Shown: positions 436-55,195 of the stretch, piece after piece | How positions within the stretch are numbered: the stretch's first letter is position 1 | Layout of the letters: each line of letters starts with the position of its first letter | From: Chitinophaga pinensis | GTDB lineage: Bacteria > Bacteroidota > Bacteroidia > Chitinophagales > CAMDFR01 | Reading direction: 5' to 3' | NCBI GenBank assembly: GCA_945860705.1 | Contig: CAMART010000008.1 | Span: 1-64,000 of the forward strand | DNA length: 64,000 nt | Program-made: the position numbers and the translations under genes | The notes under the pieces: model-generated | Databases searched by the model: none | What the model saw: only the letters and a program-made list of their open reading frames with translations | Told to the model about the DNA's origin: nothing

Positions 436-720
436 TTATCTTTTAGATATTTTATTTTGTGTAATTTGTCTTTGGAGACTGCATTTAAATATATTCACAT
501 CTTGGGCTCTTTTAGATTCGTGTTTGATACTGATTTGATGAGCTCTTTTTCGCCATAGTAGAAAACTATTCCTTTTTAAATGACGGCGCATTATTCTTAT
601 TACATCACTTTCTTTTATACCAAACTGGCGTTGTATAGCATCAAAACTAGTTCTGTCTTCCCAAGCCATTTCTATGATTCTATCTATATCTATATCTGAA
701 AGATTATTTGAAATCTCCAT
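436..720 (-). CDS. TIGR03643/DUF2805 family protein
   Basis: A 94-residue basic protein. The N-terminal half (IDRIIEMAWEDRTSFDAI, then a QFGIKESDVIRIMRR segment) looks like a helix-turn-helix-like fold, and the C-terminal half is rich in Arg and Lys. The family, known as TIGR03643 or DUF2805, is recurrently found beside cryptochromes and photolyases, but its function is not established. The start ATG at 720 lies inside the 3' end of the SRPBCC gene (17-base overlap), so the two are probably translationally coupled. A nucleic-acid-binding role is an inference from the HTH-like pattern and the charge. Confidence 0.78.
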   Translation of the reverse strand: MEISNNLSDIDIDRIIEMAWEDRTSFDAIQRQFGIKESDVIRIMRRHLKRNSFLLWRKRAHQISIKHESKRAQDVNIFKCSLQRQITQNKISKR

Positions 721-1168
721 AAAGCTCTATTACTTTTTTAAATCTAAAATCAAATATTTGCTGTAGTTGTTTTTTTACCATTAAATAATTCATAATATCC
801 CCTAAGATACCAAAAGGTAATTTATAATGAATGATGTCTGTCATTTCTACTCCACCTTCTATAGCTTTGATATGATGTTGGTGATGCCAAAAAACATATG
901 GACCAAATCTTTGTTCGTCTACAAAATAATTTGGTTCGCTTACATGAGTGATTTCTGTACACCATTTTATAGGAATAGATAAAATGGGTTTCACAATATA
1001 TTCTATTATTTGCCCGGCATACATCTTTTCTCCATGGTATTTTGAAATAATTTCAAAACCCATGTGGCTGGGTGTTATTGTTTTTAAGTTTTTTGGAGAA
1101 GATAAAAAATCCCATGCTTCATCTATAGATATAGGTATTTTCTGTTCAAATTTTAAACTATGTATCAT
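704..1168 (-). CDS. SRPBCC (START-like) family protein
   Basis: A 154-residue single-domain protein of the SRPBCC/START-like superfamily (helix-grip fold that binds hydrophobic ligands). It begins with the usual alternating strand and the DEAWDFLSSPKNL helix, has a mid-domain PNYFVDEQ..GPYVFWHHQHH stretch, and ends in the long C-terminal helix. The family covers cyclases, lipid carriers and chaperone partners, so the ligand cannot be named. It lies between the cryptochrome and TIGR03643 genes, with 23 bases to the cryptochrome stop. Similar SRPBCC genes are familiar in photolyase/cryptochrome clusters of other bacteria. Confidence 0.8.
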   Translation of the reverse strand: MIHSLKFEQKIPISIDEAWDFLSSPKNLKTITPSHMGFEIISKYHGEKMYAGQIIEYIVKPILSIPIKWCTEITHVSEPNYFVDEQRFGPYVFWHHQHHIKAIEGGVEMTDIIHYKLPFGILGDIMNYLMVKKQLQQIFDFRFKKVIELYGDFK

Positions 1169-1191
1169 ATTATATTTTTAGTAATAACAAT

Positions 1192-2508
1192 TTATTGTAA
1201 CCAATGTTTTCTATATGTATTATTTGGATCATAGGTTGCTGCTTGTTTTGCTGTATTGAAATATCTGTCAGCTCTTGGATCTACTCCTATTCCTGCAATA
1301 TACTGCCAATTGCACCAATTTATATGCACATCGTAGTCTATCAAAAGATACTCAAACCATGATGCTCCCACTCGCCAATCTTGTTTTAAATCTTTACACC
1401 AATAACTCGCTACATTTTGTCTACCTCTATTGCTCATATATCCTGTAAGGTATAATTCTTTCATATTCGCATCTATGAAATCATTGCCTGTATTGAATTC
1501 TGACCATTTTAGAAAAATCTCTTTACTTATATTTTCATAAGGATACTTATTATCTAAACCATGTAATTGAAAAATTTTATTTCCAAATTTTTTGCTCAAA
1601 AAGATGAAATAATCTCGCCACAACAGCTCGAAAACCAACCAATACGTAGACTCATTAGCTCCATTAATACTTTCATATTTTTTTATTTCATGATAAATAA
1701 ATCTTGGTGAGAGCGAACCGTATGATAAATACGACGAAAATTTGCTTGAATAATCAGGTCCTAATAATTCATTTCTTGTTTGTTTGTAATTACTGATTTT
1801 TTTAGATTCAAAAAGATAGTAGTTTAATCTATTTAATCCTTCTTGTTCGCCACCTTTTATAAATACTGAAGTTCTTCTGTCTATTTCTATCTCTTCTATA
1901 TCCTCATATATATTGTATATCTGAGTATGTATTTTGATATGTTCTGTTGGCAGTTGAGCCATTTGTGTGTAATGCTGAAAGGTATCTCTTACTACAAGAT
2001 TTTTTTCTACAATTTTTCTAAATGCAGTAAACATACTTGGAAGATTGCTTATATTAAAAGGCAAATCTTCATTAACTATAAGAGATTTGCAATTAACTAT
2101 ACAAATTTCTATAGAAGTGTACTTCTTTACATCATCAATATGTCTCAGTTCTTCTTCTGCTTCTATATTTTGATAAAGTAGAAGATTTGTATCATTTGTT
2201 ATTATTAAATCTTTAATAATATTTGCAACATTACCCTTAAAAATAAATAAGTCAGAGCCTAGCTTATTAAGTTTTGATTTCAATTCTAGTAATGAATGAG
2301 CGCGAATCTTTTTTCTTTGTTTTGAAATTCTACTAAACCCAAATTGATTCAACTCATCTTCTTTTTCGTCTATTATATATATAGGTAAAAAAGTTTTTGC
2401 AAATTGACTAAGATATAATGCTTCATTATCATGAATTCTTAAATCATTTCTAAATAAGTAAAGGACGTTTTTGTTTGAAATATTTATTTCGCTTTTTGTC
2501 GTTTGCAT
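1192..2508 (-). CDS. DASH-family cryptochrome/photolyase
   Basis: A 438-residue flavoprotein of the cryptochrome-DASH group, which repairs cyclobutane pyrimidine dimers (mainly in single-stranded DNA) and is proposed to sense blue light. The N-terminal alpha/beta antenna domain starts with VLYLFRNDLRIHDNEAL. The FAD-binding helical domain has the DASH hallmarks YKQTRNELLGPDYSSKFSSY, ELLWRDYF, GYMSNRGRQNVASYW and DPRADRYFN. The length is normal for a bacterial DASH protein without a C-terminal extension. The ATG at 2508 lies 25 bases inside the preceding DUF2256 gene. The folE gene upstream in the same run would serve production of the pterin antenna (MTHF). Confidence 0.93.
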   Translation of the reverse strand: MQTTKSEINISNKNVLYLFRNDLRIHDNEALYLSQFAKTFLPIYIIDEKEDELNQFGFSRISKQRKKIRAHSLLELKSKLNKLGSDLFIFKGNVANIIKDLIITNDTNLLLYQNIEAEEELRHIDDVKKYTSIEICIVNCKSLIVNEDLPFNISNLPSMFTAFRKIVEKNLVVRDTFQHYTQMAQLPTEHIKIHTQIYNIYEDIEEIEIDRRTSVFIKGGEQEGLNRLNYYLFESKKISNYKQTRNELLGPDYSSKFSSYLSYGSLSPRFIYHEIKKYESINGANESTYWLVFELLWRDYFIFLSKKFGNKIFQLHGLDNKYPYENISKEIFLKWSEFNTGNDFIDANMKELYLTGYMSNRGRQNVASYWCKDLKQDWRVGASWFEYLLIDYDVHINWCNWQYIAGIGVDPRADRYFNTAKQAATYDPNNTYRKHWLQ

Positions 2509-2627
2509 TTTTCACTACAATATTTTACTGCATCCCAATTTTTTTCCCATTTTTTTCTCCAGTCAAATGGTCTTTGACATAATAAACAGATTTTTGAAGG
2601 TAAGGTAGATTTGGTAAATTTTTTCAA
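2484..2627 (-). CDS. DUF2256 zinc-finger mini-protein (TTG start)
   Basis: A 47-residue protein. It has four cysteines at residues 14, 17, 37 and 41 (ICLLC and YCSEKC) around the conserved core QRPFDWRKKWEKNWD, which I recognise as DUF2256. The only plausible start is TTG at 2627: an in-frame stop lies four codons upstream and there is no internal ATG. It begins 5 bases after the flavin reductase stop and overlaps the cryptochrome start by 25 bases. The family is known as a short companion of cryptochrome/photolyase genes. Its role is unknown; the four cysteines suggest a bound zinc. Confidence 0.85.
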   Translation of the reverse strand: MKKFTKSTLPSKICLLCQRPFDWRKKWEKNWDAVKYCSEKCKRQKAK

Positions 2628-2632
2628 GCTAT

Positions 2633-3253
2633 TTAACTAATTAATTTAGCTATTGAATTTGGTTTGGCATAAGAAAGCCTTTTTATCTTACTAGTAGTAT
2701 AATACGCATCAAGCCCTGTAGCCGTAATAGTTCCAGCTTTATCTATGTTTATAAAACCATCATTTTCTATGATTTCATTTGGTACAATTATATCTATTAT
2801 TTTACCGATAATAAAAGATGTTCCATTTATTTCTATGTCTATTTTTTGCACAAACTCACAAGCAAATTTGATAATGCTTTCTTTTACAAATGGCGCGTAA
2901 ATACCCTCTTTGTATTCCGACTTTAGACCAGTGGTTTCAAATTCAGAAATAGAAGCTTCGTATTTTGCACTTGTCTGATGTGCTTGGTCTATCATAGATT
3001 CATGTATATGGTTTATCGTATACGATCTAGATTCTAAAATATTTGCTAATGTATTTCGAGGTGGTATACTTGGCCTTACTATCAAACCACACAATGCTGG
3101 GTCTGCACCTATATGAACCAAAGAACTAAATATAGCTAGGTTTTCATTACCTAAAGTATTCTTAGTACCTACAAGACATATGCTTTTAAAACCGCCTAAT
3201 GAATTTATGAGATTGCCTCTATATCTTCTTTCTAAACTATCTAAATGTATCAT
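2633..3253 (-). CDS. flavin reductase-like FMN-binding protein
   Basis: A 206-residue protein of the flavin reductase/FMN-binding split-barrel family. Near the N-terminus it has the typical phosphate-loop region, with NLAIFSSLVHIGADPALCG and the PRNTLANI segment that contacts FMN, followed by barrel strands such as FIIGKIIDI. Members use NAD(P)H to reduce flavins, or carry a tightly bound FMN. In this operon it could supply reduced flavin for the cryptochrome or take electrons from the ferredoxin; both ideas are inference. It is 7 bases downstream of the SDR gene and 5 bases upstream of DUF2256. Confidence 0.8.
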   Translation of the reverse strand: MIHLDSLERRYRGNLINSLGGFKSICLVGTKNTLGNENLAIFSSLVHIGADPALCGLIVRPSIPPRNTLANILESRSYTINHIHESMIDQAHQTSAKYEASISEFETTGLKSEYKEGIYAPFVKESIIKFACEFVQKIDIEINGTSFIIGKIIDIIVPNEIIENDGFINIDKAGTITATGLDAYYTTSKIKRLSYAKPNSIAKLIS

Positions 3254-3260
3254 AATAACT

Positions 3261-3959
3261 TTATCTAATTATAGACATACCACCATCTGCGTGTATTACT
3301 TGTCCTGTAATCCATGAAGAGTCATAACTAATTAAAAACATCGCTAATGAAGCTATCTCTGATGGATTGCCATATTTTTTGAGTGGGTGTCTTTGTGAAG
3401 CTGCTTCTTTTTTTGCATCGGTATCCAATAGTTTTGAAGCTAGTGGAGTATCTGTAAGTGAAAGTGCTATACAATTTACATTTACTTTGGGAGCCAACTC
3501 AGCAGCGCATGAACGAACCATACCTTCTACTGCAGCTTTTGAAGCAGCTATAGATGCATGGAAAGTCATACCTTGAGCTACTGCTACTGTGCTAAAAAAA
3601 AGTGCTTTTGGAGCGTCTGATTTCTTGATATTAGGTAAGCATTTTTGGAATGTATCAAATGCACTCACTACATTGATTTCATAGTCTGTTCTAAAATCAT
3701 CTTTAGTCAATCTATTTATTGGTTTAAGATTGATACTGCCTGGACAATAAATAAATGCATCAATCATATCTGGTAGTATAGAAGTATCTATTGTATCTGA
3801 TAACACATCATGCTGATGATGAATTAATGAATTTGTATTTATTCCTAAAGGTTCGTTTCTAGAAAAGTTATATACAGTATAATTTAGATTAACTGCTTTT
3901 TTAATAATCTCTAAACCTACTCCAGATGAGCCACCTATGATTACTAAGTTTTTCGCCAT
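3261..3959 (-). CDS. photolyase-cluster SDR lacking the catalytic tyrosine
   Basis: A 232-residue short-chain dehydrogenase/reductase. The NAD(P)-binding glycine motif is GGSSGVG at residues 9-15. Ser123 and Lys141 are at the expected catalytic spacing, but residue 137, where the YxxxK tyrosine should be, is isoleucine (HASIAASK). The base sequence confirms the ATA codon. The C-terminal SLTDTPLASK segment follows the usual substrate loop. The fold is therefore SDR, but classical Tyr-Lys chemistry cannot operate; a neighbouring His134 might substitute, or the protein may only bind a ligand. The start ATG shares one base with the folE stop (TAATG), so the pair is coupled. I recall similar Tyr-less SDRs in other photolyase clusters. 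Confidence 0.85.
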   Translation of the reverse strand: MAKNLVIIGGSSGVGLEIIKKAVNLNYTVYNFSRNEPLGINTNSLIHHQHDVLSDTIDTSILPDMIDAFIYCPGSINLKPINRLTKDDFRTDYEINVVSAFDTFQKCLPNIKKSDAPKALFFSTVAVAQGMTFHASIAASKAAVEGMVRSCAAELAPKVNVNCIALSLTDTPLASKLLDTDAKKEAASQRHPLKKYGNPSEIASLAMFLISYDSSWITGQVIHADGGMSIIR

Positions 3960-4636
3960 TATTTTTTATTGATCAAATTAAATAATTCAGATTTTTTACT
4001 TTCATTTTTAAATTTACCTCCTAAATGATACGTGATAGTATCACTACTCGTATCACCTATACCTCTGGAGGATACGCATAAATGGTCTGCTTCTATCACT
4101 ACAGCTACATCTTGTGTATGTAATATTTTTTTAAGTTCATGAGCTATTTGCTCGGTCAATCTTTCTTGTACTTGTGGTCTTTTGGCAAAATACTGTGCTA
4201 TTCTATTGAGCTTTGAAAGCCCTATTACGTGTTTACTAGGGATGTAAGCAATGTGCGCTTTACCAATGATAGGAACAAAGTGATGCTCACAATATGAGTA
4301 AATGGTGATATTTCGCTCTAATAAAATTTGTTCGTAGTTATAGTTATTTTCAAATAGACTGATACTAGGTTTGTTTCGCTGGTCTAATCCTTTGAAGATT
4401 TCATTTACATACATTTTTGCTACACGCTTGGGAGTATCTTTCAGACTTAAATCTGTAAGATCTAATCCTAGTGTATGCATGATTTCGTGAAAGTGTTCTG
4501 TGATTTTATCTATCTTTTCATTGTTAGTCATATCAAATGCATCTTCTCTAAGAGGAGTGTTGATATTGTAAAATGAGTGGCAATCGCATGAGTCTTCATC
4601 TTGGTCATGTATTGTTTTAGCTAATGAATTATTCAT
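3959..4636 (-). CDS. folE: GTP cyclohydrolase I
   Basis: A 225-residue GTP cyclohydrolase I, the first enzyme from GTP to dihydroneopterin triphosphate (folate and tetrahydropterin pathways). The zinc ligands are clear: Cys116 and His119 in YSYCEHHF and Cys187 in HLCVSSRG. The active-site stretches GKAHIAYIP and SKLNRIAQYFAKRPQVQERLT are intact. The N-terminal 40 residues are a nonconserved extension. It sits between the B12-type MerR regulator and the SDR. A folE copy beside a cryptochrome is a known feature of LitR/CarH light regulons and fits the need for the MTHF antenna pterin. Whether another folE exists elsewhere in the genome cannot be seen. Confidence 0.96.
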   Translation of the reverse strand: MNNSLAKTIHDQDEDSCDCHSFYNINTPLREDAFDMTNNEKIDKITEHFHEIMHTLGLDLTDLSLKDTPKRVAKMYVNEIFKGLDQRNKPSISLFENNYNYEQILLERNITIYSYCEHHFVPIIGKAHIAYIPSKHVIGLSKLNRIAQYFAKRPQVQERLTEQIAHELKKILHTQDVAVVIEADHLCVSSRGIGDTSSDTITYHLGGKFKNESKKSELFNLINKK

Positions 4637-4692
4637 ATTTGATATTTATATTTATCTAACATAAAATCAATTTGAATGTTCAAAAATTTGTG

Positions 4693-5577
4693 CTAATTAT
4701 TTAATTTAGTTGCTTGATCTATTAAATCTTGAAATTCTACAATCTTTAAAAGATTACTTTGTTTCTGTCTTAATTGATTTATTTGATTACCACTAGCCCA
4801 GATGGTTTGTTTTTTGAATGAGCTACAGATGATGTTGAAGTATTCATCCATAGTAAAATCTTGCATAGGGATAGTAATCATAGTGAGAACTATGTCTGGT
4901 TCTACAAAATTGATAGCACTTTTTAAATCTATTAATGGGAGTGAAGCACCCATGTAAAGTGCATCATGGTGTTGAGATTTGAGAATGTAATAAGCCATTA
5001 GTAATGGTATTTCATGAAACTCTCCTTCTGGTAAATAAAGTATAAATCTTTTTGAGTTAGGATTTTTCTCTGGTATAATTCCATCGATGGCTACAAGAAT
5101 TTTTTTGCGTATAAGATTGGTAATGAAATGTTCCTGAGCTGGATTTACAGAGCCTGTTACCCACATAGCACCTATCTTTTGCATAAAAGGAATGATGATG
5201 TCAGACATTGTTTTTAATACGCCATGTTTGAGAATGCAATTTGAAAATATTTTTTCGAATTTAACTTTATTAAAATCAATCATTGCAGATTGAAGTCCAT
5301 GTATGTTTGCATCTTCAGAGTTTACTGTATCATATAATTTTTCTATTTCATTATTGATATCCTCGTGCTTCATTGATGCAAGCTTGGATATCTTCATTCC
5401 TTTGTGATTGAGAAATGCGATATTAAGAATATACTTTAGCTGGTCATCAGTATAATAGCGTATATTGGTATCTGTGCGATGTGGCTCTATGAGTCCATAT
5501 CTTTGTTCCCAGATACGTATAGTGTGTGCTTGCACTCCCGTTAATGTTTCTATATCTTTTATTGAATACTTTCCCAT
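4693..5577 (-). CDS. CarH/LitR-type B12-binding MerR photoreceptor-regulator
   Basis: A 294-residue regulator. The N-terminal MerR winged helix is YSIKDIETLTGVQAHTIRIWEQRYGL. A helical bundle carries the signature W139-x9-E149-H150, which caps adenosylcobalamin in CarH photoreceptors, and a cobalamin-binding Rossmann domain has the lower-ligand histidine H188 in EFHEIP. In known CarH proteins, B12 in the dark holds a DNA-bound tetramer that light breaks apart. Two departures: the residue after W139 is Val rather than the histidine of Thermus CarH, and the ExHxxG glycine is Pro191. It is the first gene of the minus-strand run and probably controls it and itself. The B12 requirement is inferred. 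Confidence 0.88.
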   Translation of the reverse strand: MGKYSIKDIETLTGVQAHTIRIWEQRYGLIEPHRTDTNIRYYTDDQLKYILNIAFLNHKGMKISKLASMKHEDINNEIEKLYDTVNSEDANIHGLQSAMIDFNKVKFEKIFSNCILKHGVLKTMSDIIIPFMQKIGAMWVTGSVNPAQEHFITNLIRKKILVAIDGIIPEKNPNSKRFILYLPEGEFHEIPLLMAYYILKSQHHDALYMGASLPLIDLKSAINFVEPDIVLTMITIPMQDFTMDEYFNIICSSFKKQTIWASGNQINQLRQKQSNLLKIVEFQDLIDQATKLNN

Positions 5578-9601: not shown

Positions 9602-11173
9602 CTAATTCGTTTCTTTAATTTTTTTATATGTCACCGGTGCTACTCGAGCTGTGCCACCTACTTTATCATATACTTCACTAAAAGCTCTACTACATAATGG
9701 TAATTTTTCTCTAAGTGCATCATATGATAAATGTGAAAACATTCGTCTGAATTGTTCTTTATTCATCAAAGTTCGAGCATATAGTGCTTGATATCCGTGA
9801 TTATCTATTACAAAGTTTTCTAGTTTTGCTAAAGATGTATTCCCATCAAAATTTATTTGCTTTGGTGAACCATAAGCACCAATATCTACAAATAATTCAT
9901 CATACTCTCCATTATCTTTATGATATGGATGTATAAAACCAATATTATTTGGATAGGCTTTTACTGCCATAGGACAAACCCATAGAGGATATACCTGATA
10001 ATGTTCTTCAAAATATAACAAGGATTTTTTTAATAAAGATATCGGCATCAACATATCTTGTACTACATGATGTTTTTCGCGTAATGCACGTGTGGTTTCT
10101 GTTTCAAAATATTTCATCAAAGACAATTGAGGTGGCAATGCCCAACCTAATAAATATCTAAACCATAAACTATTTCCAAATGGAATAACTTCTTCCATTT
10201 CCCAAAACAAACTACGAGTATGACGATGATAATAATCTCTTAATGGAATATACTCAACACTTGTAGAATTGTTTTTCAAAAATTTTTCTACTTGTTTATA
10301 AAACCAGGGTTTATAAAAACGACCAATTCGATTTATTTTACTTCTATCAAAAGCATCTTTTGCAAAATTTCCAGTCATTAATACTGCTTCATCTCTACTG
10401 TATTGCAACAATTCTATAAATTGATACTCTTTATTTCTACTCGCATCTTCAAATTTTTGAACAATATTATCTAAGCCATATATCGGCTGATAAGTTAGCT
10501 CTACAAATTTGCTACAAGGTATAATATATAACTCTGCGCAAACTAAAAAACCTAATGTGCCATGACTCCATGGAATATTATAAAATAATGTTTGGTTTTC
10601 AGTAGCTGAACAATGCATAAAAGTACCATCGGCTGTAATAATATCTATAGATGCAATTGTATACTGAAACAAACCATATTTATGACTTGAAGATTCAATT
10701 CCAAATCCATTTATCAAACCACCAACTGTAAGATTATCTAGTTCGGGTACTACTTGTAAAGTCCAGCCTTTTTGATTCAACATAGCAGTAATTTGTCCCA
10801 TATTTACTAGTGGTTCTACTTTTATTGTCTGTTTTTGATAATCTATATATATAATATCTCGCATATTCATTTCAATAGCGTGATTTGTTTTTTTATAGGC
10901 AGGTACCAATTCACTCATTGTAAACCAACCAGATCGAGATGTAGTAAGTTTTTGAGTACTTCCACTATTAGCCCATTCTATTACTTGTTGTTTTACTTTC
11001 TCTACTCGTTTTTCATGGTCTTTAGGAGCAGTATTTAATAAAAAAACTAATCTACTTCTAAGTGATAAATAGGAAGAATATACTACAGAGATAGGAATCA
11101 AGATAATAGTAGCAAAAGCACCTCTGTGATATGTCAATAAATATTCGAAAAAATTAAAAGACTTTTTACTCAT
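9602..11173 (-). CDS. Delta(24)-sterol reductase (DHCR24)-like FAD oxidoreductase
   Basis: A 523-residue FAD-linked oxidase (PCMH/vanillyl-alcohol oxidase fold) that follows human DHCR24/seladin-1 (516 residues) over its whole length, as I recall that sequence. It keeps the N-terminal membrane helix with the LIPISVVY segment, the SAP-x-x-HE-x-RV start of the soluble part, the FAD loop PELDNLTVGGLINGFGIESS (residues 143-162), PWSHGTLGFLV, FYKPWFYKQVE, the block EYIPLRDYYHRHTRS (307-321) and DIGAYGSP. DHCR24 reduces the C24 double bond of sterol side chains with NADPH. No other sterol gene is in the window, and the base composition does not obviously differ from its neighbours. The real substrate may be another isoprenoid. 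Confidence 0.88.
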   Translation of the reverse strand: MSKKSFNFFEYLLTYHRGAFATIILIPISVVYSSYLSLRSRLVFLLNTAPKDHEKRVEKVKQQVIEWANSGSTQKLTTSRSGWFTMSELVPAYKKTNHAIEMNMRDIIYIDYQKQTIKVEPLVNMGQITAMLNQKGWTLQVVPELDNLTVGGLINGFGIESSSHKYGLFQYTIASIDIITADGTFMHCSATENQTLFYNIPWSHGTLGFLVCAELYIIPCSKFVELTYQPIYGLDNIVQKFEDASRNKEYQFIELLQYSRDEAVLMTGNFAKDAFDRSKINRIGRFYKPWFYKQVEKFLKNNSTSVEYIPLRDYYHRHTRSLFWEMEEVIPFGNSLWFRYLLGWALPPQLSLMKYFETETTRALREKHHVVQDMLMPISLLKKSLLYFEEHYQVYPLWVCPMAVKAYPNNIGFIHPYHKDNGEYDELFVDIGAYGSPKQINFDGNTSLAKLENFVIDNHGYQALYARTLMNKEQFRRMFSHLSYDALREKLPLCSRAFSEVYDKVGGTARVAPVTYKKIKETN

Positions 11174-45681: not shown

Positions 45682-46373
45682 TGAAAAAAGTAGTAGTGCT
45701 AACAGGTGCTGGAATAAGTGCCGAAAGTGGTATTAAAACATTTAGAGATGCTGGTGGACTTTGGGAAGGTCATGATGTGATGGAGGTTGCTTCACCTGAA
45801 GGCTGGAGAAAAAATCCACATTTAGTATTAGATTTTTATAATCAAAGAAGAAAACAACTAAAAGAAGTTTTACCTAATAAAGCACACCTAGACATACAAA
45901 AACTGGAAGAAGATCTTGAAGTAATAATTATCACTCAAAATGTTGATGATTTACATGAAAGAGCTGGCAGTAAAAATATCATACATCTTCATGGTGAATT
46001 ACTGAAAGTACGAAGCATAAAAAATTCAACATTAATTTCTGTCACAACTGAAGACATCTTTTGGGGAGATACTGCAAGTGATGGAGCGCAGTTGCGACCT
46101 CACATAGTTTGGTTTGGCGAGGAAGTACCCATGATAGAAAAAGCAATAGAAAATATAATAGATGCTGATTTTGTATTGATAATAGGTACATCAATGCAAG
46201 TATATCCTGCTGCAGGACTGATTCATTATTTAAAAAATGGGTGTATTGTATATGCTATAGACCCAAATTTAGAAATACATCAAATAAACGTAAAAAATGA
46301 GTTTCATCTTATAAAAGATACTGCGGTAAATGGTGTAGCTAAAGCAATAAGGATGATAAAAAGTACTTTATAA
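45681..46373 (+). CDS. cobB: NAD-dependent protein deacylase (sirtuin), SIRT5-like, zinc site absent
   Basis: A 230-residue sirtuin that removes acyl groups from lysines using NAD. The NAD motifs are TGAGISAESGIKTFR, ITQNVDDLHERAG and IIGTSMQVYP, and the catalytic histidine is His104 (HLHGEL). Tyr53 and Arg56 (YNQR) match the Y-x-x-R pair of SIRT5-type enzymes, which favour succinyl, malonyl or glutaryl lysine. The four zinc cysteines usually found after HGEL are missing: residues 105-150 contain none. The start overlaps the subtilase stop by one base, and the 3' end overlaps convergent rfbD by 6 bases. Confidence 0.9.
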   Translation: MKKVVVLTGAGISAESGIKTFRDAGGLWEGHDVMEVASPEGWRKNPHLVLDFYNQRRKQLKEVLPNKAHLDIQKLEEDLEVIIITQNVDDLHERAGSKNIIHLHGELLKVRSIKNSTLISVTTEDIFWGDTASDGAQLRPHIVWFGEEVPMIEKAIENIIDADFVLIIGTSMQVYPAAGLIHYLKNGCIVYAIDPNLEIHQINVKNEFHLIKDTAVNGVAKAIRMIKSTL

Positions 46374-47225
46374 ATTTGCAATTACGTTTCCTAAACTTTC
46401 TCTCCAATGTGGAATTTGAATTCCAAAAGTTGATTTTATTTTATTTTTATCCATCACAGAGTATGCAGGTCTTTTAGCTGGAGTAGGATATTGAGCACTT
46501 AGTATCGGTAATATATCACATTCAATTTTTTGCATACTGACTAATTCTTTGGCAAAATCATACCAAGAACATACTCCTTCATTGCTATAATGATAAATTC
46601 CAAATGAATTTGATTTAGATAAAATTATATTAAAAATAGTTTCTACTAAATCCATAGTATAAGTTGGTGTTCCAACTTGGTCATATACTATATTTAATGA
46701 GACTCTATCTCTAGCATACTTAGAAATATTGGTAAAGAAATTTGCACCAATAGAAGAATATAACCATGAAGTTCTGATGATAAAATATGATTCTAAATTT
46801 TGGATGATTGCTTGTTCTCCATCAAACTTAGTTTTGCCATATGCTCCAAGAGGAATACATTTTTCATCTTCAATTAATGGAGTATTTTTAGTGCCATCAA
46901 ATACAAAATCTGTAGAAATATGAATTAATGTACAACCATAAACTTTTGAAATTTGAGCTAATTTTCCTACTGCTATATTATTAATAAGATTTGCTTGTTC
47001 AAGTTCGCTTTCTGCCTTATCTACAGCAGTATAAGCAGTACAATTGATAATATAACTAGGTTGTATAGACTTGATTGTATTTTCTAATTTGGCGAAATCT
47101 GTGATATCAATTTCGGTTCTTGTTGTGAAAATAAAATCTCCATCAATTTTATGAATGGAAATATATTCTTTTATTGATTTGCCTAGTTGACCATTTGCTC
47201 CTAAAACTAGAATTTTTGTAGACAT
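46368..47225 (-). CDS. rfbD: dTDP-4-dehydrorhamnose reductase
   Basis: A 285-residue RmlD/RfbD enzyme, the last step to dTDP-L-rhamnose. It has the NAD(P) motif VLGANGQLGKSI, NCTAYTAVDKAE, STDFVFDG, the YxxxK pair in YGKTKFDGE and ARPAYSVMDKNK near the end. It is the last gene of a nine-gene nucleotide-sugar run on the minus strand and is 11 bases from rfbC. Its 3' end overlaps convergent cobB by 6 bases. Confidence 0.95.
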   Translation of the reverse strand: MSTKILVLGANGQLGKSIKEYISIHKIDGDFIFTTRTEIDITDFAKLENTIKSIQPSYIINCTAYTAVDKAESELEQANLINNIAVGKLAQISKVYGCTLIHISTDFVFDGTKNTPLIEDEKCIPLGAYGKTKFDGEQAIIQNLESYFIIRTSWLYSSIGANFFTNISKYARDRVSLNIVYDQVGTPTYTMDLVETIFNIILSKSNSFGIYHYSNEGVCSWYDFAKELVSMQKIECDILPILSAQYPTPAKRPAYSVMDKNKIKSTFGIQIPHWRESLGNVIANL

Positions 47226-47236
47226 TATAGACTTAT

Positions 47237-47797
47237 TTATGAGAAGTAAAATTCGGTTGAAGCTTCTTCAAATGTAGGTAGAATATTATCTTTTTCAGAA
47301 ATAATTAATTCCTCTTTTCTAAAAGGCAATTCAATATGTATTGATTGATCAAAAAATGACAAACCTCTTTCTGCATCTTTATTATAAAAATTATCACATT
47401 TATAAAAAAACTCGGTATTGTCTTTGAGAACTAAAAAACCATGAGCAAAACCACGTGGTACGAATAACTGCTTTTTATTTTGTTCTGTCAAAAGTATTTG
47501 ATATGACTTTTTATATGTAGCAGAATCTTTTCTGCAATCAACGACAAAGTCTATTACTTCGCCTTTTAATACTGTAACAAGCTTGGCTTGAGCAGATGCT
47601 CCAATTTGATAATGAAGTCCTCTAATCACACCTTTATGTGACATAGAGCGATTATCTTGTACAAATTTTGCATCTATACAACCATCGTTCAAAAAACTAT
47701 TGGCATTGTAGCTTTCCATAAAGAATCCTCTAGCATCTTCGATTACTTTTGGTTCAAAAACAATTAGACCTTCAATGTCGGTTTTAATAAATGGCAT
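47237..47797 (-). CDS. rfbC: dTDP-4-dehydrorhamnose 3,5-epimerase
   Basis: A 186-residue cupin-fold epimerase that inverts C3 and C5 of dTDP-4-dehydro-6-deoxyglucose. The diagnostic stretches are IEGLIVFEPKVIEDARGFF, QDNRSMSHKGVIRGLHYQ with the catalytic histidine, DFVVDCRKDS, and PRGFAHGFLVL. Complete length. It works between rfbB and rfbD; all three are in this cluster, with a WbpP-type epimerase gene inserted between rfbC and rfbB. Confidence 0.96.
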   Translation of the reverse strand: MPFIKTDIEGLIVFEPKVIEDARGFFMESYNANSFLNDGCIDAKFVQDNRSMSHKGVIRGLHYQIGASAQAKLVTVLKGEVIDFVVDCRKDSATYKKSYQILLTEQNKKQLFVPRGFAHGFLVLKDNTEFFYKCDNFYNKDAERGLSFFDQSIHIELPFRKEELIISEKDNILPTFEEASTEFYFS

Positions 47798-47807
47798 GTT
47801 ATTTTAT

Positions 47808-48803
47808 TTAATGAGTTTCATACATTTTAGCAAAATATTTTACTGCTATAGGTAATCCATCTTCAAATCTAAATTTAGGATCATAGTCAAGTAATTTTTT
47901 TGCTTTAGAAATATCTGCAAGAGAATTTCTCACATCGCCTTTTCGAGCATCTCTATGTATAGGTTTATGTGTAATCCCTAGTATTTTTTCTATTTGATTA
48001 TATAAATAATTTACAGAAAATTTTTCACCTACAGCTATATTATATATCTGATTTACTGCATCTATATTTTCAGTTAAAAGTGCTTTTATGTTAGCTTGTA
48101 CAGCATTTTCCACAAAAGTAAAATCACGACTTTGTTCTCCGTCTCCGTCAATAAATACATCTTCTTTGGTCAATATTTTTGATACGAAAATAGGAATAAC
48201 AGCAGCGTAAGGATTATTTGGATCCTGATTTGGTCCAAAGATATTGAAATACCTTAATCCTATAATTTCCATACCATATGTCAAACCGAATACTTTTCCG
48301 TATAATTCATTGGTATATTTAGTAACCGCATATGGAGAAAGAGGATTACCTACATTTTCCTCTATTTTTGGTAGAGCAGGATGGTCTCCATATACCGATG
48401 ATGAAGATGCATAAACTACTCTTTTTATATTTGAATCTTTAGCAGCAATTAAAACATTCAGAAAGCCAGTTACATTTGCTTGATTACTTCTTGCTGGGTC
48501 TTTTATAGAGCGTGGAACAGAACCTAGAGCTGCTTGATGTGTAATTATATCCATACCTTTACAAGCTTGTAAGCAAGTCCCAATATTTGCAATATCTCCT
48601 TCTATAAATTCGAATCTAGGATCACCTTCATATTTAGAAATATTTTTGTAATTTCCATTACTCAAATTATCTAAGACTCTCACTTTTCCTACACCATATT
48701 TTAATAAATATTCTACAATATTAGAACCGATGAAACCAGCTCCACCAGTTACCAACACTTTTAGTTTACTAATATCTTTTTCGTGATAAGGATGATCGTA
48801 CAT
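47808..48803 (-). CDS. NAD-dependent epimerase, WbpP-type UDP-GlcNAc 4-epimerase
   Basis: A 331-residue extended SDR. The motifs TGGAGFIGSNIVEYLL, ALGSVPRSIKDP, SSSSVYGDHPALPKIE, YAVTKYTNELYG and NIFGPNQDPNNPYAAVIP closely follow Pseudomonas WbpP and Salmonella TviC, which interconvert UDP-GlcNAc(A) and UDP-GalNAc(A). The catalytic Tyr and Lys are in YAVTK. Together with the WbpO/TviB-type dehydrogenase two genes upstream, it would give UDP-GalNAcA, as in Vi antigen and O6 antigen synthesis. A UDP-glucose substrate is less likely because of the GSVPRS loop. Confidence 0.85.
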   Translation of the reverse strand: MYDHPYHEKDISKLKVLVTGGAGFIGSNIVEYLLKYGVGKVRVLDNLSNGNYKNISKYEGDPRFEFIEGDIANIGTCLQACKGMDIITHQAALGSVPRSIKDPARSNQANVTGFLNVLIAAKDSNIKRVVYASSSSVYGDHPALPKIEENVGNPLSPYAVTKYTNELYGKVFGLTYGMEIIGLRYFNIFGPNQDPNNPYAAVIPIFVSKILTKEDVFIDGDGEQSRDFTFVENAVQANIKALLTENIDAVNQIYNIAVGEKFSVNYLYNQIEKILGITHKPIHRDARKGDVRNSLADISKAKKLLDYDPKFRFEDGLPIAVKYFAKMYETH

Positions 48804-48809
48804 TTTATA

Positions 48810-49859
48810 TTAGTTATATTGTTCTTGATAATATTTTTGATAGTTTCCGCTAGTCACATTGCTCAGCCATTCATCATTTGAAAGATACCAATCTACCGTT
48901 TTCTCTAGACCTTGTTCGAATGTAACAGATGGATAAAATCCTAACTCTTTGTTGATTTTTGTAGCATCTATTGCATATCTTAGGTCATGTCCAGGTCTAT
49001 CTTTCACAAAAGTAATGAGCTTTTCTGAAGTTCCTATTTCTCTTCCTAGTTTTATATCCATTAGTTTACAGAGTGTTTTTACTAAATCTATATTCTGCCA
49101 TTCGTTGAATCCACCAATATTATATGTGTCACCATTTTTACCACTATGAAATACTAAATCTATAGCAATAGCATGATCTATAACGTACAACCAATCTCTT
49201 GTATATTTTCCATCTCCATAAACCGGAAGTGGCTTATTATTTTTAATATTATAAATACAAAGAGGAATTAACTTTTCTGGAAAATGATTAGGTCCATAGT
49301 TATTTGAACAGTTTGAAATTACTATTGGTAAACCATAAGTGTCATGATATGCACGTACAAAATGATCTGAACTTGCCTTAGATGCCGAGTATGGACTATG
49401 TGGATCATAGGAAGTATCTTCAGTAAATAATCCTTCAGCTCCTAGTGCACCATATACTTCATCAGTAGATACGTGATAAAATCGTTTATTTGAGAAATCA
49501 TCTTTCCAAATATTTTTTGCTGCGTTAAGTAAATTTACAGTTCCAATAACATTTGTATATACAAATTCTAATGGATTGGTAATGGATCTATCTACATGAC
49601 TTTCTGCGGCTAAATGTATAACCGCGTCAAATCTTTCAGTTTCAAATAAATTATTTATAAAAGAAGCATCTACGATATCTCCTTTAATAAATTGATAATT
49701 AGGAGAATTTTCAATGTCTTTTAGATTTTCTAAATTCCCAGCATAAGTTAGCTTATCTAAATTATAAATTTTATAATCTGGATATTTTATAACAAACAAT
49801 CTTGCTACATGTGAACCTATAAAACCTGCTGCACCAGTTATTAATATTTTTTTACTCAT
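48810..49859 (-). CDS. rfbB: dTDP-glucose 4,6-dehydratase
   Basis: A 349-residue RmlB. The NAD motif is TGAAGFIGSHVARLF, the catalytic acid pair lies in STDEVYGALG, and YxxxK in YSASKASSDH; NNYGPNHFPEKLIPL and VYGDGKYTRDWLYV are conserved. It makes dTDP-4-dehydro-6-deoxyglucose for rhamnose synthesis. The thymidylyltransferase rfbA, its usual partner, is not in the window. It is 10 bases downstream of the WbpO-type gene. Confidence 0.96.
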   Translation of the reverse strand: MSKKILITGAAGFIGSHVARLFVIKYPDYKIYNLDKLTYAGNLENLKDIENSPNYQFIKGDIVDASFINNLFETERFDAVIHLAAESHVDRSITNPLEFVYTNVIGTVNLLNAAKNIWKDDFSNKRFYHVSTDEVYGALGAEGLFTEDTSYDPHSPYSASKASSDHFVRAYHDTYGLPIVISNCSNNYGPNHFPEKLIPLCIYNIKNNKPLPVYGDGKYTRDWLYVIDHAIAIDLVFHSGKNGDTYNIGGFNEWQNIDLVKTLCKLMDIKLGREIGTSEKLITFVKDRPGHDLRYAIDATKINKELGFYPSVTFEQGLEKTVDWYLSNDEWLSNVTSGNYQKYYQEQYN

Positions 49860-49869
49860 TATATTATTA

Positions 49870-51168
49870 TTATAGAGTCCAGTAAGTTATTTCTTTAATT
49901 TTATTTCTATAAATACCTTTTACATCTACTAAAACTCCTTTTTCATTCAATATAGATTTAAAATAAGCTTCATCAAGACTTAAATATGCACTATGATTTA
50001 CGGCTACAACAATAGCATCATATCCAGTTCCTATTTTATCTTCTAATGTTTGGTTATATTCATGCAAAAATTCTTCTTTTTCTGCATGAGGATCTGTTAT
50101 TTCTACATTTACTGAGAATGTTTGCAATTCTTTTATTACATCAATTACTTTCGAGTTTCTAATATCGCTTACATCTTCTTTAAATGTAGCTCCCATAACT
50201 AGTACTCTTGATTTATCAATTTGTTTTCCAGCTTTAATCATTTTTTGAACTAATCTTTGAGCTACGTATGCACCCATACTATCATTGATTCTTCTACCAC
50301 CTAAAATAACTTCTGCCTTATACCCCATGCTTTCAGCCTTATATGTAAGATAGTAAGGATCTACACCTATACAATGTCCTCCTACAAGACCTGGTTTAAA
50401 GTTTAAGAAGTTCCACTTAGTACCTGCTGCTTCAAGTACGTCATAGGTATTGATTTTCATTTTATCAAAAATTTTAGACAACTCATTCATCAATGCAATA
50501 TTGACATCTCTTTGTGTATTTTCAATAATTTTTGCAGCTTCAGCAACTTTAATTGTAGGTGCTTTGTGAACGCCCGCCATTACTACTATTTTATAAGTAT
50601 CAGTTATTATTTCTAAAGATTCTTGGTCGCATCCACTTACTACTTTCAATATTTTTGTAATAGTATGTTCTTTATCACCTGGATTAATTCTTTCCGGAGA
50701 ATACCCAACTTTAAAATCAGAAACAAATTTTAATCCTGATTCTTTTTCTAAAACTGGAATACAATCTTCCTCTGTACATCCTGGATATACTGTAGATTCA
50801 AATACTACATAATCACCTTTTTTCAAAACTTTACCTACAGTTTTAGATGCAGATAATACTGGTATCAAATCTGGTACATTATGTCCATCTACTGGTGTTG
50901 GAACGGCTACAATAAAGAAAGTAACATCTCTTAAGTCTTCCAATTCATGTGTGAAATGTATATCAGCACCTTTAAAATCATCACTTGTCAGTTCATTGCT
51001 AGGGTCGATATGATTTCTCATCATTTCTACTCTTTTTGCATTGATATCGAAGCCGACTACTTTTATTTTTTTTGCAAATTCTAAAGCTATAGGTAATCCT
51101 ACATATCCAAGACCTATTACAGCAAGTTTTGTTTCTTTATTAATTAGTTTTTGATAAATATTACTCAT
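49870..51168 (-). CDS. nucleotide sugar dehydrogenase, WbpO/TviB type
   Basis: A 432-residue UDP-sugar 6-dehydrogenase that oxidises C6 to a carboxylate in two steps with NAD. N-terminal Rossmann motif GLGYVGLPIALEFAKK; VPTPVDGHNVPDL; ESTVYPGCTEE; catalytic cysteine in GLVGGHCIGVDPYY. The ESTVYPG and GGHCIGVDPYYL forms point to the UDP-GlcNAc/GalNAc group (WbpO, TviB, WbpA) rather than UDP-glucose, which is served by the separate ugd in this cluster. It likely pairs with the WbpP-type epimerase. Confidence 0.9.
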   Translation of the reverse strand: MSNIYQKLINKETKLAVIGLGYVGLPIALEFAKKIKVVGFDINAKRVEMMRNHIDPSNELTSDDFKGADIHFTHELEDLRDVTFFIVAVPTPVDGHNVPDLIPVLSASKTVGKVLKKGDYVVFESTVYPGCTEEDCIPVLEKESGLKFVSDFKVGYSPERINPGDKEHTITKILKVVSGCDQESLEIITDTYKIVVMAGVHKAPTIKVAEAAKIIENTQRDVNIALMNELSKIFDKMKINTYDVLEAAGTKWNFLNFKPGLVGGHCIGVDPYYLTYKAESMGYKAEVILGGRRINDSMGAYVAQRLVQKMIKAGKQIDKSRVLVMGATFKEDVSDIRNSKVIDVIKELQTFSVNVEITDPHAEKEEFLHEYNQTLEDKIGTGYDAIVVAVNHSAYLSLDEAYFKSILNEKGVLVDVKGIYRNKIKEITYWTL

Positions 51169-51188
51169 TTTGTTAAGTATTTATATTA

Positions 51189-51764
51189 TTATTTAATTCT
51201 TATTACTTTGTTATCTGCTAGTTTATATTCTTGGTTTGTTTCTGGGCATAACGCTATTCCTTCATCATTAAATTTGAGTCTATGCCCATACTCGCTTACC
51301 CATCCCAACTGACGTGCAGGGTTTCCAACAACTAATGCATAATCTGGAATATTTTTTGTAACTACAGCACCTGCACCAATAAATGCAAAAGCTCCTATAT
51401 CATGACCACAAACGATAGTAGCATTAGCACCGATGGATGCCCCTTTTTTTACTGTCGTTTTTGCGTATTGTTCTTTTCTATTTACTGCACTCCTTGGATT
51501 GATTACATTTGTAAAAACCATTGATGGCCCTAAAAACACATCATCTTCGCAAATAACTCCAGTATAGATAGAAACATTATTTTGAATTTTTACATTCGAA
51601 CCTAATATCACATCTGGAGATATCACTACATTTTGTCCTATATTACATCGTTCTCCTATAAAGCAGTTTGGCATTATATGACTAAAATGCCATATTTTAG
51701 TACCATCACCTATAGTACAACCTTCATCTACAATTGCAGATTCGTGTGCGTAGAAATTTCCCAT
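51189..51764 (-). CDS. WlbB/WbpD-type UDP-amino-sugar N-acetyltransferase
   Basis: A 191-residue left-handed beta-helix acyltransferase with many hexapeptide repeats (such as [40 protein letters not shown]). It has the features [14 protein letters not shown] and [20 protein letters not shown] of the WlbB/WbpD group, which acetylates the 3-amino group of UDP-GlcNAc(3NH2)A. Its natural upstream partners are an oxidase (WlbA) and an aminotransferase (WlbC); an aminotransferase lies four genes upstream at 54071, but no WlbA is in the window. It is 2 bases from the UXS gene. Confidence 0.88.
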
Positions 51765-51766
51765 AT

Positions 51767-52756
51767 TTATTTTATAATATATTTTTCAAAATTATTGTGT
51801 TCTTTGTTAAATAGTTCATCTTTTGATAAAGATTTGAAATATTCATACGTGATTTTTAATCCTTCTTCACGACTTACTTTAGGCTTCCAACCTAAAATTT
51901 CAATAGCTTTAGTTATATCTGGTTTTCTTTGCATAGGATCATCTATTGGTAAAGGCTCATAGATAATCTTTTGATTTGTATTCGTTAGTTTTATTATTTC
52001 TTCTGCAAACTGTTTAATCGTGATTTCATCTGGATTACCAATATTGATAGGCAAATCATAAGAACTTAACAATAGTCTATAAATTCCTTCTACTAAATCA
52101 TCTACATAACAAAAAGAGCGAGTTTGGCTACCATCCCCAAAAATAGTTAAATCTTCTCCTCTTAATGCTTGACCTATAAATGCAGGCAATACTCGACCAT
52201 CATTCAATCTCATTCTTGGCCCATAAGTATTAAAAATACGAACTATTCTAGTTTCTAATTTATGAAAACGATTATAAGCCATGGTTAGTGCTTCTTGAAA
52301 ACGTTTTGCTTCATCATAAACTCCTCTAGGACCAATAGGATTCACATTTCCCCAATAATCTTCTGTTTGAGGGTGGACTAATGGGTCTCCATATATTTCA
52401 GAAGTTGATGCTATCAAAATTCTAGCATTTTTAGCTTTTGCTAGTCCTAATACATTATGTGTGCCTAATGAACTTACTTTTAGTGTTTGAATAGGAATTT
52501 TTAAATAGTCAATAGGGCTAGCTGGAGAAGCAAAATGAAGTATATAATCTAAGTGACCAGGAATATGTATATACTTAGTGACATCATGATTATAAAAAGT
52601 AAAGTTTTCTAGTGAAAATAAGTGTTGTATATTTTCTAGTCTTCCTGTTATAAGATTATCCATGCCTAATACATCAAAGCCTTCATTGATATATCTATCA
52701 CATAAATGTGAGCCTAAAAACCCTGCAGCACCTGTAATTAATATTCTTTTACTCAT
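51767..52756 (-). CDS. UDP-glucuronate decarboxylase (UXS-type)
   Basis: A 329-residue extended SDR that converts UDP-glucuronate to UDP-xylose. Diagnostic stretches: [62 protein letters not shown] with the catalytic Tyr/Lys, and [17 protein letters not shown]. It overlaps the ugd stop by 4 bases (ATGA), so UDP-glucose to UDP-glucuronate to UDP-xylose is encoded by a coupled pair. Confidence 0.93.
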
Positions 52757-54063
52757 TGAGTGATTACTTCTCTTCCTATACTTATATATTCAAATCCTTG
52801 TTTTTTCATTTCACTAAGCGAGAAAACATTTCTTCCATCAAAAATTAAATGATCTTTCAATTCTGATTTTATTATATCAAAATTTGGATTCCTAAATTCA
52901 GACCATTCCGTAACAATCACTAAAAAATCAGCACCTTTCAACGCATCATATTCTGTATCTGCAAATTTTATTTTATCACCATATATCTTCTTAACATTAT
53001 TCATAGCCTCTGGATCATATGCAGTAATATTTGCACCATGCAATAATAATTGATCAATTATATATAATGCTGGAGCTTCTCTTATATCATCTGTATTTGG
53101 TTTAAAAGCCAATCCCCATAGTGCTATATTTTTTTCTTTTAAGTTGGTTATTCTATTTTTTATTTTATTAAAAAACATTTCTCTTTGTCTATCGTTTACA
53201 GACATTACTGCTTCTAGAATTTTAAAATCGTATTCGTTTTCTTTTGATGTCCTAGCAAGCGCTTGTACATCTTTAGGAAAACATGAGCCACCATATCCTA
53301 CTCCTGGAAATAAAAACCTATTACCAATTCTATTATCAGTACCAATACCTTTACGAACCATATCTGCATCTGCACCTGTGAGCTCGCAAAGATTTGCTAT
53401 TTCATTCATAAAACTAATCTTAGTAGCTAAAAATGCATTGGCTGCATATTTAGTCATCTCTGCACTTTTCAAATCCATATGGATAATAGGATTGCCCTGT
53501 CTTACAAATGGCTCATATAGCTGATTCATCATTTGTTTTGCTCTATCTGATGATGAACCGATTACTACTCTATCCGGTTTTAAAAAATCTTCTACAGCTA
53601 CACCTTCTCTCAAAAACTCTGGATTAGAAACTACATCAAACTCACAAGTTGAGTTTTTCAATATGGCATCTTTTACTTTATCAGCAGTTCCTACAGGCAC
53701 TGTGCTCTTATCTACTATTACTTTGTAACTGGTCATTATTTTTCCAAGTTGCTCTGCTACTCCAATTATATAGGATAAATCTGCTGAACCATCTTCACCT
53801 GGTGGCGTAGGCAATGCTAAAAAAATAATATCCGATTTATCTACTGCTTCTTTTAAATTTGTTGTAAAAAGCAATCTGTTTTTTTCTATATTTCTATGAA
53901 ATAAAGTTTCTAAACCTGGCTCATAAATAGGAATATTACCATTTTGCATAGATTTTACTTTCTCTTCATTTATATCTACACAGATTACATAATTTCCTGT
54001 TTCTGCAAAACATGTTCCTGATACCAATCCTACATATCCAGTTCCTATTACTGCTATTTTCAT
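52753..54063 (-). CDS. ugd: UDP-glucose 6-dehydrogenase
   Basis: A 436-residue UDP-glucose dehydrogenase forming UDP-glucuronate. It has [18 protein letters not shown], the [15 protein letters not shown] loop, the [11 protein letters not shown] motif, [15 protein letters not shown] and the catalytic cysteine in [13 protein letters not shown]. The length is standard. It is 7 bases downstream of the aminotransferase gene and coupled to UXS by a 4-base overlap. Confidence 0.96.
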
Positions 54064-54070
54064 AATTTAT

Positions 54071-55195
54071 TTAAATACTATTTAATACTGTTTTCGTGAT
54101 AAATTCTAATTGTTCTTGATCCATTTCAGTATGTATAGGAAGCGAAATAACTCTCTCCGTAAGCCAATCTGTAATAGGTAAATTAGACTCCTCAAGCTTT
54201 AAAGATTCAAACATTTTTTGCTTATGTGCTGGCACAGGATAATATATCATTGAGGGTATACCTGCATCTGCAAGCTTTTGTTGAAACTCATCTCTATTAG
54301 TATTTTCTATAAGCATTGTGTACTGATGAAAAACATGATAAGAATTTTTATTTCTTGCTGGTGTAGTTATTTTTGGATGATTGGCAAATGATGCATCATA
54401 AAAGTCTGCTACTTTTCTTCTCTCTACACAATAGCTATCTAGTAATCTCAATTTTATTCTCAGTACAGCTGCTTGAACCGTATCTAATCTACTATTGCAT
54501 CCTACAACATCATGATAATATTTTTTGCTTTGTCCATGATTGGCTATCATTTTTAATTTATCTGCAAGCAAATCATCATTAGTCATTATTGCTCCGCCAT
54601 CACCGTAACACCCTAAATTTTTTGATGGGAAAAATGAGGTACATGCAATAGTACCCATACTACCTGTTTTCTTTACTGTACCATTGTTATATGTATAAGT
54701 ACTGCCTATAGCTTGAGCATTATCTTCTATTATTGGTAAATTATGTTTTTTTGCGATTGCTTCCAATGCTTCCATATCTACACTTTGCCCATATAAATGT
54801 ACTGGAACTATTGCTTTTGTTTTTGGTGTTATTGCTTCCTCTATTTTTGATACATCTATAGTGAAAGTATCTTTATTTACTTCTACAAAAACAGGTTTTA
54901 AATTTAGAAGAGCTACAACTTCCACGGTAGCTATATAAGTAAAAGATGGAGTGATCACTTCATCACCTGGCTCTAAACCTATTGCCATCAATGCTATCTG
55001 CAATGCGTCAGTACCATTAGCACAAGCGATTACATGTTTTACACCTAAATAATTTTGAAGTTCTTTTTCAAATTCCAGAACATCTGGACCTTTGATAAAT
55101 TGCGCTTTGCTTATAACGCTTTGAATTGCCGAATCTACTTCTGGTTTTATTTTCTCATATTGGCTGATGAGATCTACCATTTCTATTTTTCTCAA
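54071..55195 (-). CDS. DegT/DnrJ/EryC1 family sugar aminotransferase
   Basis: A 374-residue PLP-dependent aminotransferase acting on keto-sugar nucleotides. The PLP lysine is Lys192 in FFPSKNLGCYGDGG; Asp158 in IIEDNAQAIG binds the pyridine nitrogen; PSFTYIATVEVVALLN and PVHLYGQSVDME are conserved. Similarity in detail to WbpE/WlbC (3-amination of UDP-GlcNAcA) is my reading, supported by the WlbB-type acetyltransferase in the same run. It heads the nucleotide-sugar cluster, 54 bases after aroE. Confidence 0.92.
   Translation of the reverse strand: MRKIEMVDLISQYEKIKPEVDSAIQSVISKAQFIKGPDVLEFEKELQNYLGVKHVIACANGTDALQIALMAIGLEPGDEVITPSFTYIATVEVVALLNLKPVFVEVNKDTFTIDVSKIEEAITPKTKAIVPVHLYGQSVDMEALEAIAKKHNLPIIEDNAQAIGSTYTYNNGTVKKTGSMGTIACTSFFPSKNLGCYGDGGAIMTNDDLLADKLKMIANHGQSKKYYHDVVGCNSRLDTVQAAVLRIKLRLLDSYCVERRKVADFYDASFANHPKITTPARNKNSYHVFHQYTMLIENTNRDEFQQKLADAGIPSMIYYPVPAHKQKMFESLKLEESNLPITDWLTERVISLPIHTEMDQEQLEFITKTVLNSI

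Follow-up and report, generated by a model that had tools for sequence, protein, structure and literature searches.

A DHCR24-type sterol reductase encoded in a Bacteroidota genome with an oxidosqualene cyclase, and its predicted role in the C-24 reduction of home-made sterols

The 64-kb stretch of Bacteroidota DNA analysed here (hereafter the window) harbours a gene for a full-length homologue of DHCR24, the delta(24)-sterol reductase that completes cholesterol in animals. We propose, with a probability of roughly 0.8, that this protein would reduce the delta24 bond of a sterol made by the cell itself and not that of a host-derived one, because the same genome carries genes for squalene synthase, squalene epoxidase and a cycloartenol-type cyclase. 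As to the substrate, we favour cycloartenol with somewhat less confidence, lanosterol-type or further-processed sterols being possible as well, and the product would then probably be cycloartanol.

The open reading frame is intact, with 523 codons followed by a stop codon on the minus strand, and the plus strand over the same interval contains 37 stops (Table 1). The gene follows mutS, which has the same orientation, at a distance of 134 bp, and an unrelated HAD hydrolase gene and a coaD-like gene are found on its other side. Repeats around it are limited to short chance-like matches, and the ORF list of the window contains no other sterol gene. The window belongs to contig C8 of a 2.94-Mb assembly of 46 contigs, for which completeness is given as 100% and contamination as 0.18%. 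Its order is probably Chitinophagales, since two other members of that order, G064 and G127, have DHCR24 genes identical to those of the Chitinophagales MAGs TGS_BAC7 and SKYG42. Two other gene groups were noted on the minus strand of the window. Positions 704-5577 form a light-response-like block coding for an SRPBCC-like protein, a DNA photolyase, a flavin reductase, an SDR protein, a GTP cyclohydrolase I and a CarH/LitR-like MerR regulator with a B12-binding domain; Pfam confirms the domains of all but the SRPBCC-like protein. Positions 46368-55195, judged by inspection of the listed ORFs, comprise a nucleotide-sugar/polysaccharide precursor cluster with dTDP-rhamnose-type enzymes, UDP-sugar dehydrogenases, epimerases and an aminotransferase.

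Table 1. Locations of the features discussed. Coordinates without a prefix refer to the window; the other entries give contigs of the window genome or of three other genomes (G163, G132 and G115).
Feature	Location	Strand	Basis
DHCR24-type delta(24)-sterol reductase, 523 residues (stop codon at 9602-9604)	9602..11173	-	Homology, bacterial relatives and tree, structural model
Predicted hydrophobic, probably membrane, N-terminal helix, residues 17-47: RGAFATIILIPISVVYSSYL	11033..11125	-	AlphaFold model
FAD_binding_4 (VAO/PCMH) domain core, residues 98-188	10610..10882	-	Pfam, E 1.4e-13
Signature block, residues 307-321, largely conserved in 30 homologues: EYIPLRDYYHRHTRS	10211..10255	-	Alignment
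Oxidosqualene cyclase	C40:5453-7693		PDB matches
ERG24-like/P450 gene pair	G163:C70:11842-15037		
ERG24-like/P450 gene pair	G132:C127:35965-39546		
ERG24-like/P450 gene pair	G115:C4:21645-24094		

An earlier note on this DNA had described a full-length DHCR24-like reductase in a Bacteroidota chromosome, with an N-terminal helix and the block EYIPL-x-x-YYHRHTRS, and our analyses bear out all three points. Over residues 9-510, 251 of 502 positions are identical to human DHCR24 (50%, with 69% positives and nine gap positions), and identity to Arabidopsis DWF1 is 37%. Both reference sequences are provisional. The human one is supported by seven known disease positions of DHCR24 (R94, R103, E191, N294, K306, Y471 and E480), all of which fall on the expected letters. 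R94, N294, K306 and Y471 are retained in the window protein, and E191, R103 and E480 are replaced by D, L and Q, respectively. The similarity extends over the full length, past the generic FAD domain, with a conserved C-terminal half, and the signature block is present.

Generic families recognize much less of the protein. FAD_binding_4 is its sole Pfam match, generic FAD families of NCBIfam score far under their cut-offs and PDB sequence matches are confined to the FAD region; searching the PDB by sequence gave no DHCR24 structure. We generated an AlphaFold model from 30 input sequences, all from the window or from fetched loci (mean pLDDT 87, pTM 0.87). It shows a long N-terminal helix of hydrophobic sequence and a VAO/PCMH-type fold, and its closest PDB folds are DprE1 and cytokinin dehydrogenase, with E values down to 1.6e-19. 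Both Pfam and the model thus indicate a VAO/PCMH-type FAD-binding fold. Judging from these sequence comparisons, the window protein is a genuine, intact bacterial DHCR24 homologue.

The absence of accompanying sterol synthesis genes, also put forward in the earlier note, holds for the window but not for the genome, which encodes squalene synthase, squalene epoxidase and oxidosqualene cyclase. The best PDB match of the squalene synthase is 1ezf (E 2.7e-94), and the protein scores above the cut-off of the NCBIfam squal_synth family; that of the squalene epoxidase is the squalene monooxygenase 6c6n (E 4.5e-89). Their genes adjoin on contig C4, and the DHCR24 gene is unlinked to the sterol genes. 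The cyclase matches human lanosterol synthase best (E 3.5e-205) and squalene-hopene cyclase far less strongly (E 1.9e-39), and a hopanoid reading was rejected for this reason. A search for squalene epoxidase and cyclases had been suggested at the outset; it returned these two enzymes and no second cyclase in the genome.

The cyclase has the residues Y381/H449/I453 (human numbering). In every strain tested, I453 is associated with cycloartenol and V453 with lanosterol (PMC4919349). All Bacteroidota cyclases that we checked have the Y/H/I combination except one with Y/H/V, and most methanotroph cyclases have Y/N/V or Y/Q/V at these positions.

These enzymes would compose a short route. Squalene synthase would convert farnesyl diphosphate to squalene, the epoxidase would yield 2,3-oxidosqualene, and the Y/H/I-type cyclase would form cycloartenol, the delta24(25) double bond of which would be saturated by the window DHCR24 to give cycloartanol. 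By analogy with the family, NAD(P)H would reduce the flavin, which would pass a hydride to the side-chain alkene, the protein being presumably membrane-anchored and FAD-dependent. Cholesterol-like products, unlike simple sterols, require the C-14 demethylase CYP51, and none was found in the genome. Its sole P450 is 23% identical to a methanotroph CYP51, its nearest PDB entries are carotenoid hydroxylases and P450 BM3, and it was therefore rejected as a CYP51. It is this lack of a recognizable CYP51 that makes the conversion of cycloartenol to cycloartanol probable. In methanotrophs, the presence of a DHCR24 homologue parallels the state of the side chain: Methylobacter luteus, which has one, contains C-24-saturated sterols only, and in Methylosarcina lacus, which has none, C-24 is not saturated (PMC4919349).

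The distribution of the genes also links the reductase with sterol synthesis. Among 398 Chitinophagales genomes, five have DHCR24 and 25 the cyclase, and the latter is present in all five DHCR24 genomes (hypergeometric P 6.5e-7, a value that overstates independence, as three genera only are involved). Similarly, all six DHCR24-containing Bacteroidota genomes found outside this sample (labelled Flavobacteriales, Cytophagales, Xanthovirga or Bacteroidia) encode the cyclase. The DHCR24 genomes are dispersed across the cyclase tree, and in two congeners of the window genome, 84% and 87% complete, no DHCR24 was detected beside the cyclase. C-24 reduction thus seems to be optional, added to a core that these genomes have in common.

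In one Bacteroidota genome, G060, 49 bp separate the DHCR24 and cyclase genes inside a mevalonate-to-sterol cluster. This cluster includes, on one side, genes for HMG-CoA synthase, HMG-CoA reductase, a type-2 IPP isomerase-like protein (E 2e-55, under the NCBIfam cut-off), a GHMP kinase and a polyprenyl synthase and, on the opposite side, divergent squalene synthase and squalene epoxidase genes. DHCR24 adjoins the squalene epoxidase gene in Xanthovirga, and P450, cyclase and epoxidase genes in several methanotrophs. A gene at the end of the G060 cluster (L108:913-3234) codes for a CrtC-like lipocalin domain fused to a polyprenyl synthase domain.

We scanned GTDB genomes with two short conserved patterns, which can miss divergent members, and found at least 63 related loci, most of them nearly full length. 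Methylococcales methanotrophs make up the bulk, with 53-59% identity to the window protein, followed by about ten Bacteroidota (41-71%) and by Nannocystaceae and other Myxococcota (33-40%); the remainder belong to a few other Gammaproteobacteria, two Actinomycetota and one Latescibacterota. This differs from the initial picture of homologues known from a few host-linked bacteria, and homologues in methanotrophs and myxobacteria have also been published (PMC4919349, PMC12004948). By sequence, the nearest relatives outside the Bacteroidota are sterol-making methanotrophs, not host-linked bacteria.

The DHCR24 tree unites the main Bacteroidota group with the Methylococcales in one clade (ultrafast bootstrap 100, SH-aLRT 99). 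The human sequence is the next branch beyond it (98/96), and the myxobacterial and plant sequences are farther out. The tree comprises DHCR24-like sequences alone, two of them eukaryotic and both provisional, and has long branches. A direct transfer with a eukaryote, as had been considered, does not agree with nearest relatives that are bacterial and with a human sequence that falls outside their clade; with its two eukaryotic sequences, the tree leaves room for an older exchange of DHCR24 between domains without showing one. The G060 and Xanthovirga sequences fall on the Methylococcales side (96/89). Separate DHCR24 origins within the Bacteroidota, as the tree might suggest, are not established, as the AU test (p 0.116) does not rule against all Bacteroidota sequences forming one clade. 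A viral origin was set aside, as a single scan of viral contigs with two short patterns yielded no relative of the window DHCR24.

In both the DHCR24 and the cyclase trees, methanotroph sequences are placed beside or among those of Bacteroidota. In the cyclase tree, the rooting of which is not secure, the Methylobacter-type methanotroph cyclases nest near the Bacteroidota, their nearest neighbour being the Y/H/V cyclase of the Bacteroidota genome G053; this hints at a transfer from Bacteroidota to methanotrophs. As a tentative broader view, which we hold at slightly less than even odds, a group of Bacteroidota would make cycloartanol as end sterol in four steps (squalene synthase, squalene epoxidase, cycloartenol-type cyclase and DHCR24), with no C-14 demethylation, and Bacteroidota may also be the source of both the cyclase and the DHCR24 of Methylobacter-type methanotrophs.

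Several other explanations were weighed against the reduction of home-made cycloartenol. A generic FAD-linked VAO/PCMH-family oxidase without a sterol role might be argued for from the single Pfam match of the protein and from the resemblance of its fold to DprE1 and cytokinin dehydrogenase. However, the earlier note had named best matches to generic FAD oxidases as the result that would speak against a DHCR24, and these families cover the FAD part alone and remain under their cut-offs; together with 50% full-length identity to human DHCR24 and the conserved C-terminal half, this makes a generic oxidase scarcely credible. Action on acquired sterols, another early suggestion, whether these come from eukaryotic hosts, from prey or from detritus, would fit a window without other sterol genes, and single sterol-modifying genes have reportedly been seen in some bacteria that lack a cyclase. 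Nevertheless, with its own squalene synthase, squalene epoxidase and cyclase, the genome covers the whole route between farnesyl diphosphate and a cyclised sterol, so no outside supply has to be assumed, and every Bacteroidota genome found with DHCR24 has the cyclase; we thus regard this explanation as highly improbable. Menaquinone and carotenoids are widespread in Bacteroidota, and the protein might reduce a double bond of another isoprenoid, such as a menaquinone side chain, a carotenoid or a polyprenol. Geranylgeranyl reductases, which belong to an unrelated FAD family, act on both isoprenoids and sterols (PMC12004948), so side-chain reduction can shift substrate. In contrast with those widespread compounds, DHCR24 is found in just five of the 398 Chitinophagales genomes, each of which also has the cyclase, which leaves such a role very remote.

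A longer pathway deserves more weight, although we still consider it unlikely. DHCR24 would in that case saturate a demethylated sterol, after C-14 demethylation by an unrecognised enzyme and delta14 reduction. The genome indeed encodes a 360-residue delta14-sterol-reductase-like protein of the ERG4/ERG24 family (L076:8962-10041, i.e. contig C7:88962-90041), the best PDB match of which is the delta(14)-sterol reductase 4quv (E 1e-38). This protein counts against the short route: without CYP51 it should have no delta14 substrate, and the pathway may therefore have further steps that we did not find. The unlinked position of the DHCR24 gene, the two congeners with the cyclase alone and the substitutions at E191, R103 and E480 also weigh against the proposed role. 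Its gene is over-represented with the cyclase in Chitinophagales (20 of the 25 cyclase genomes, compared with 38 of 398 overall). However, it is likewise present in 18 genomes in which no cyclase was detected, which makes its role uncertain and perhaps a different one, and the single P450 is not CYP51-like. There are also six FA_hydroxylase/sterol-desaturase-like proteins in the genome, two of which resemble human SC5D (E about 1e-23 to 1e-27 against a provisional reference), but this family is broad and includes non-sterol enzymes. The similarity is too general to designate any of them as a C-4 oxidase or C-5 desaturase.

Two other gene arrangements involving these families were observed. The window genome codes for a 603-residue protein in which a sterol-desaturase/FA_hydroxylase domain is fused to a ferredoxin-reductase module and to a 2Fe-2S ferredoxin (L210:1955-3763, contig C15). 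In three genomes, a second, distant ERG24-like gene (about 30% identity) is found within 1.3 kb of a P450 gene (Table 1); these P450s are not CYP51-like.

Sterols, and steranes as their fossil remains, are taken to indicate eukaryotes, and each new bacterial sterol maker bears on that interpretation. The presence of DHCR24 in bacteria and that of oxidosqualene cyclase in Bacteroidota are already known. In the part of the literature covered by our search, in which earlier reports could be missed, we found no description of both enzymes combined in Bacteroidota, nor of bacterially made cycloartanol; the combination appears unreported. The one sterol-positive Bacteroidota strain reported in PMC4919349 had cycloartenol and no downstream enzymes. 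Our analyses predict that side-chain-saturated sterols, cycloartanol or other 24-saturated ones, would be present in several Bacteroidota groups with this gene set, and they supply further candidate donors and recipients for the movement of sterol genes among bacteria and eukaryotes.

The window protein resembles animal DHCR24 (seladin-1) in its length, N-terminal helix, FAD domain, signature blocks and 50% identity over 502 residues. It differs from it in being bacterial and in its predicted substrate, cycloartenol instead of a lanosterol-derived sterol. Plant DWF1/SSR1 and SSR2 belong to the same superfamily, and the reaction predicted here is that of SSR2, which is believed to convert cycloartenol to cycloartanol (PMC10267570), but the window protein is closer to the animal enzyme than to Arabidopsis DWF1.

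Among bacteria, the Methylococcales proteins, such as that of Methylobacter luteus, are in the same clade as the window protein, at the identities given above, and come from genomes with an oxidosqualene cyclase. In contrast with the unlinked window gene, in a genome where no CYP51 was found, their genes are often clustered with those for a CYP51-type P450, the cyclase and the epoxidase, and most of their cyclases have lanosterol-type residues. DHCR24 homologues have been listed in methanotrophs and myxobacteria, and their presence or absence has been tied to side-chain saturation (PMC4919349). Within the Bacteroidota, Fluviicola taffensis has a squalene epoxidase and a cycloartenol-type cyclase, and lipid analysis confirmed that it makes cycloartenol; no downstream sterol genes were found in it (PMC4919349). 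To this set, the window genome adds a C-24 reductase. In Myxococcota, Enhygromyxa salina is reported to complete its cholesterol synthesis with a canonical C-24 reductase, and two other myxobacteria use Bsr, a geranylgeranyl-reductase-type enzyme (PMC12004948). Bsr and the window protein thus share the same predicted reaction in sterol-making bacteria, but Bsr belongs to another family, whereas the window protein is of the canonical DHCR24 type.
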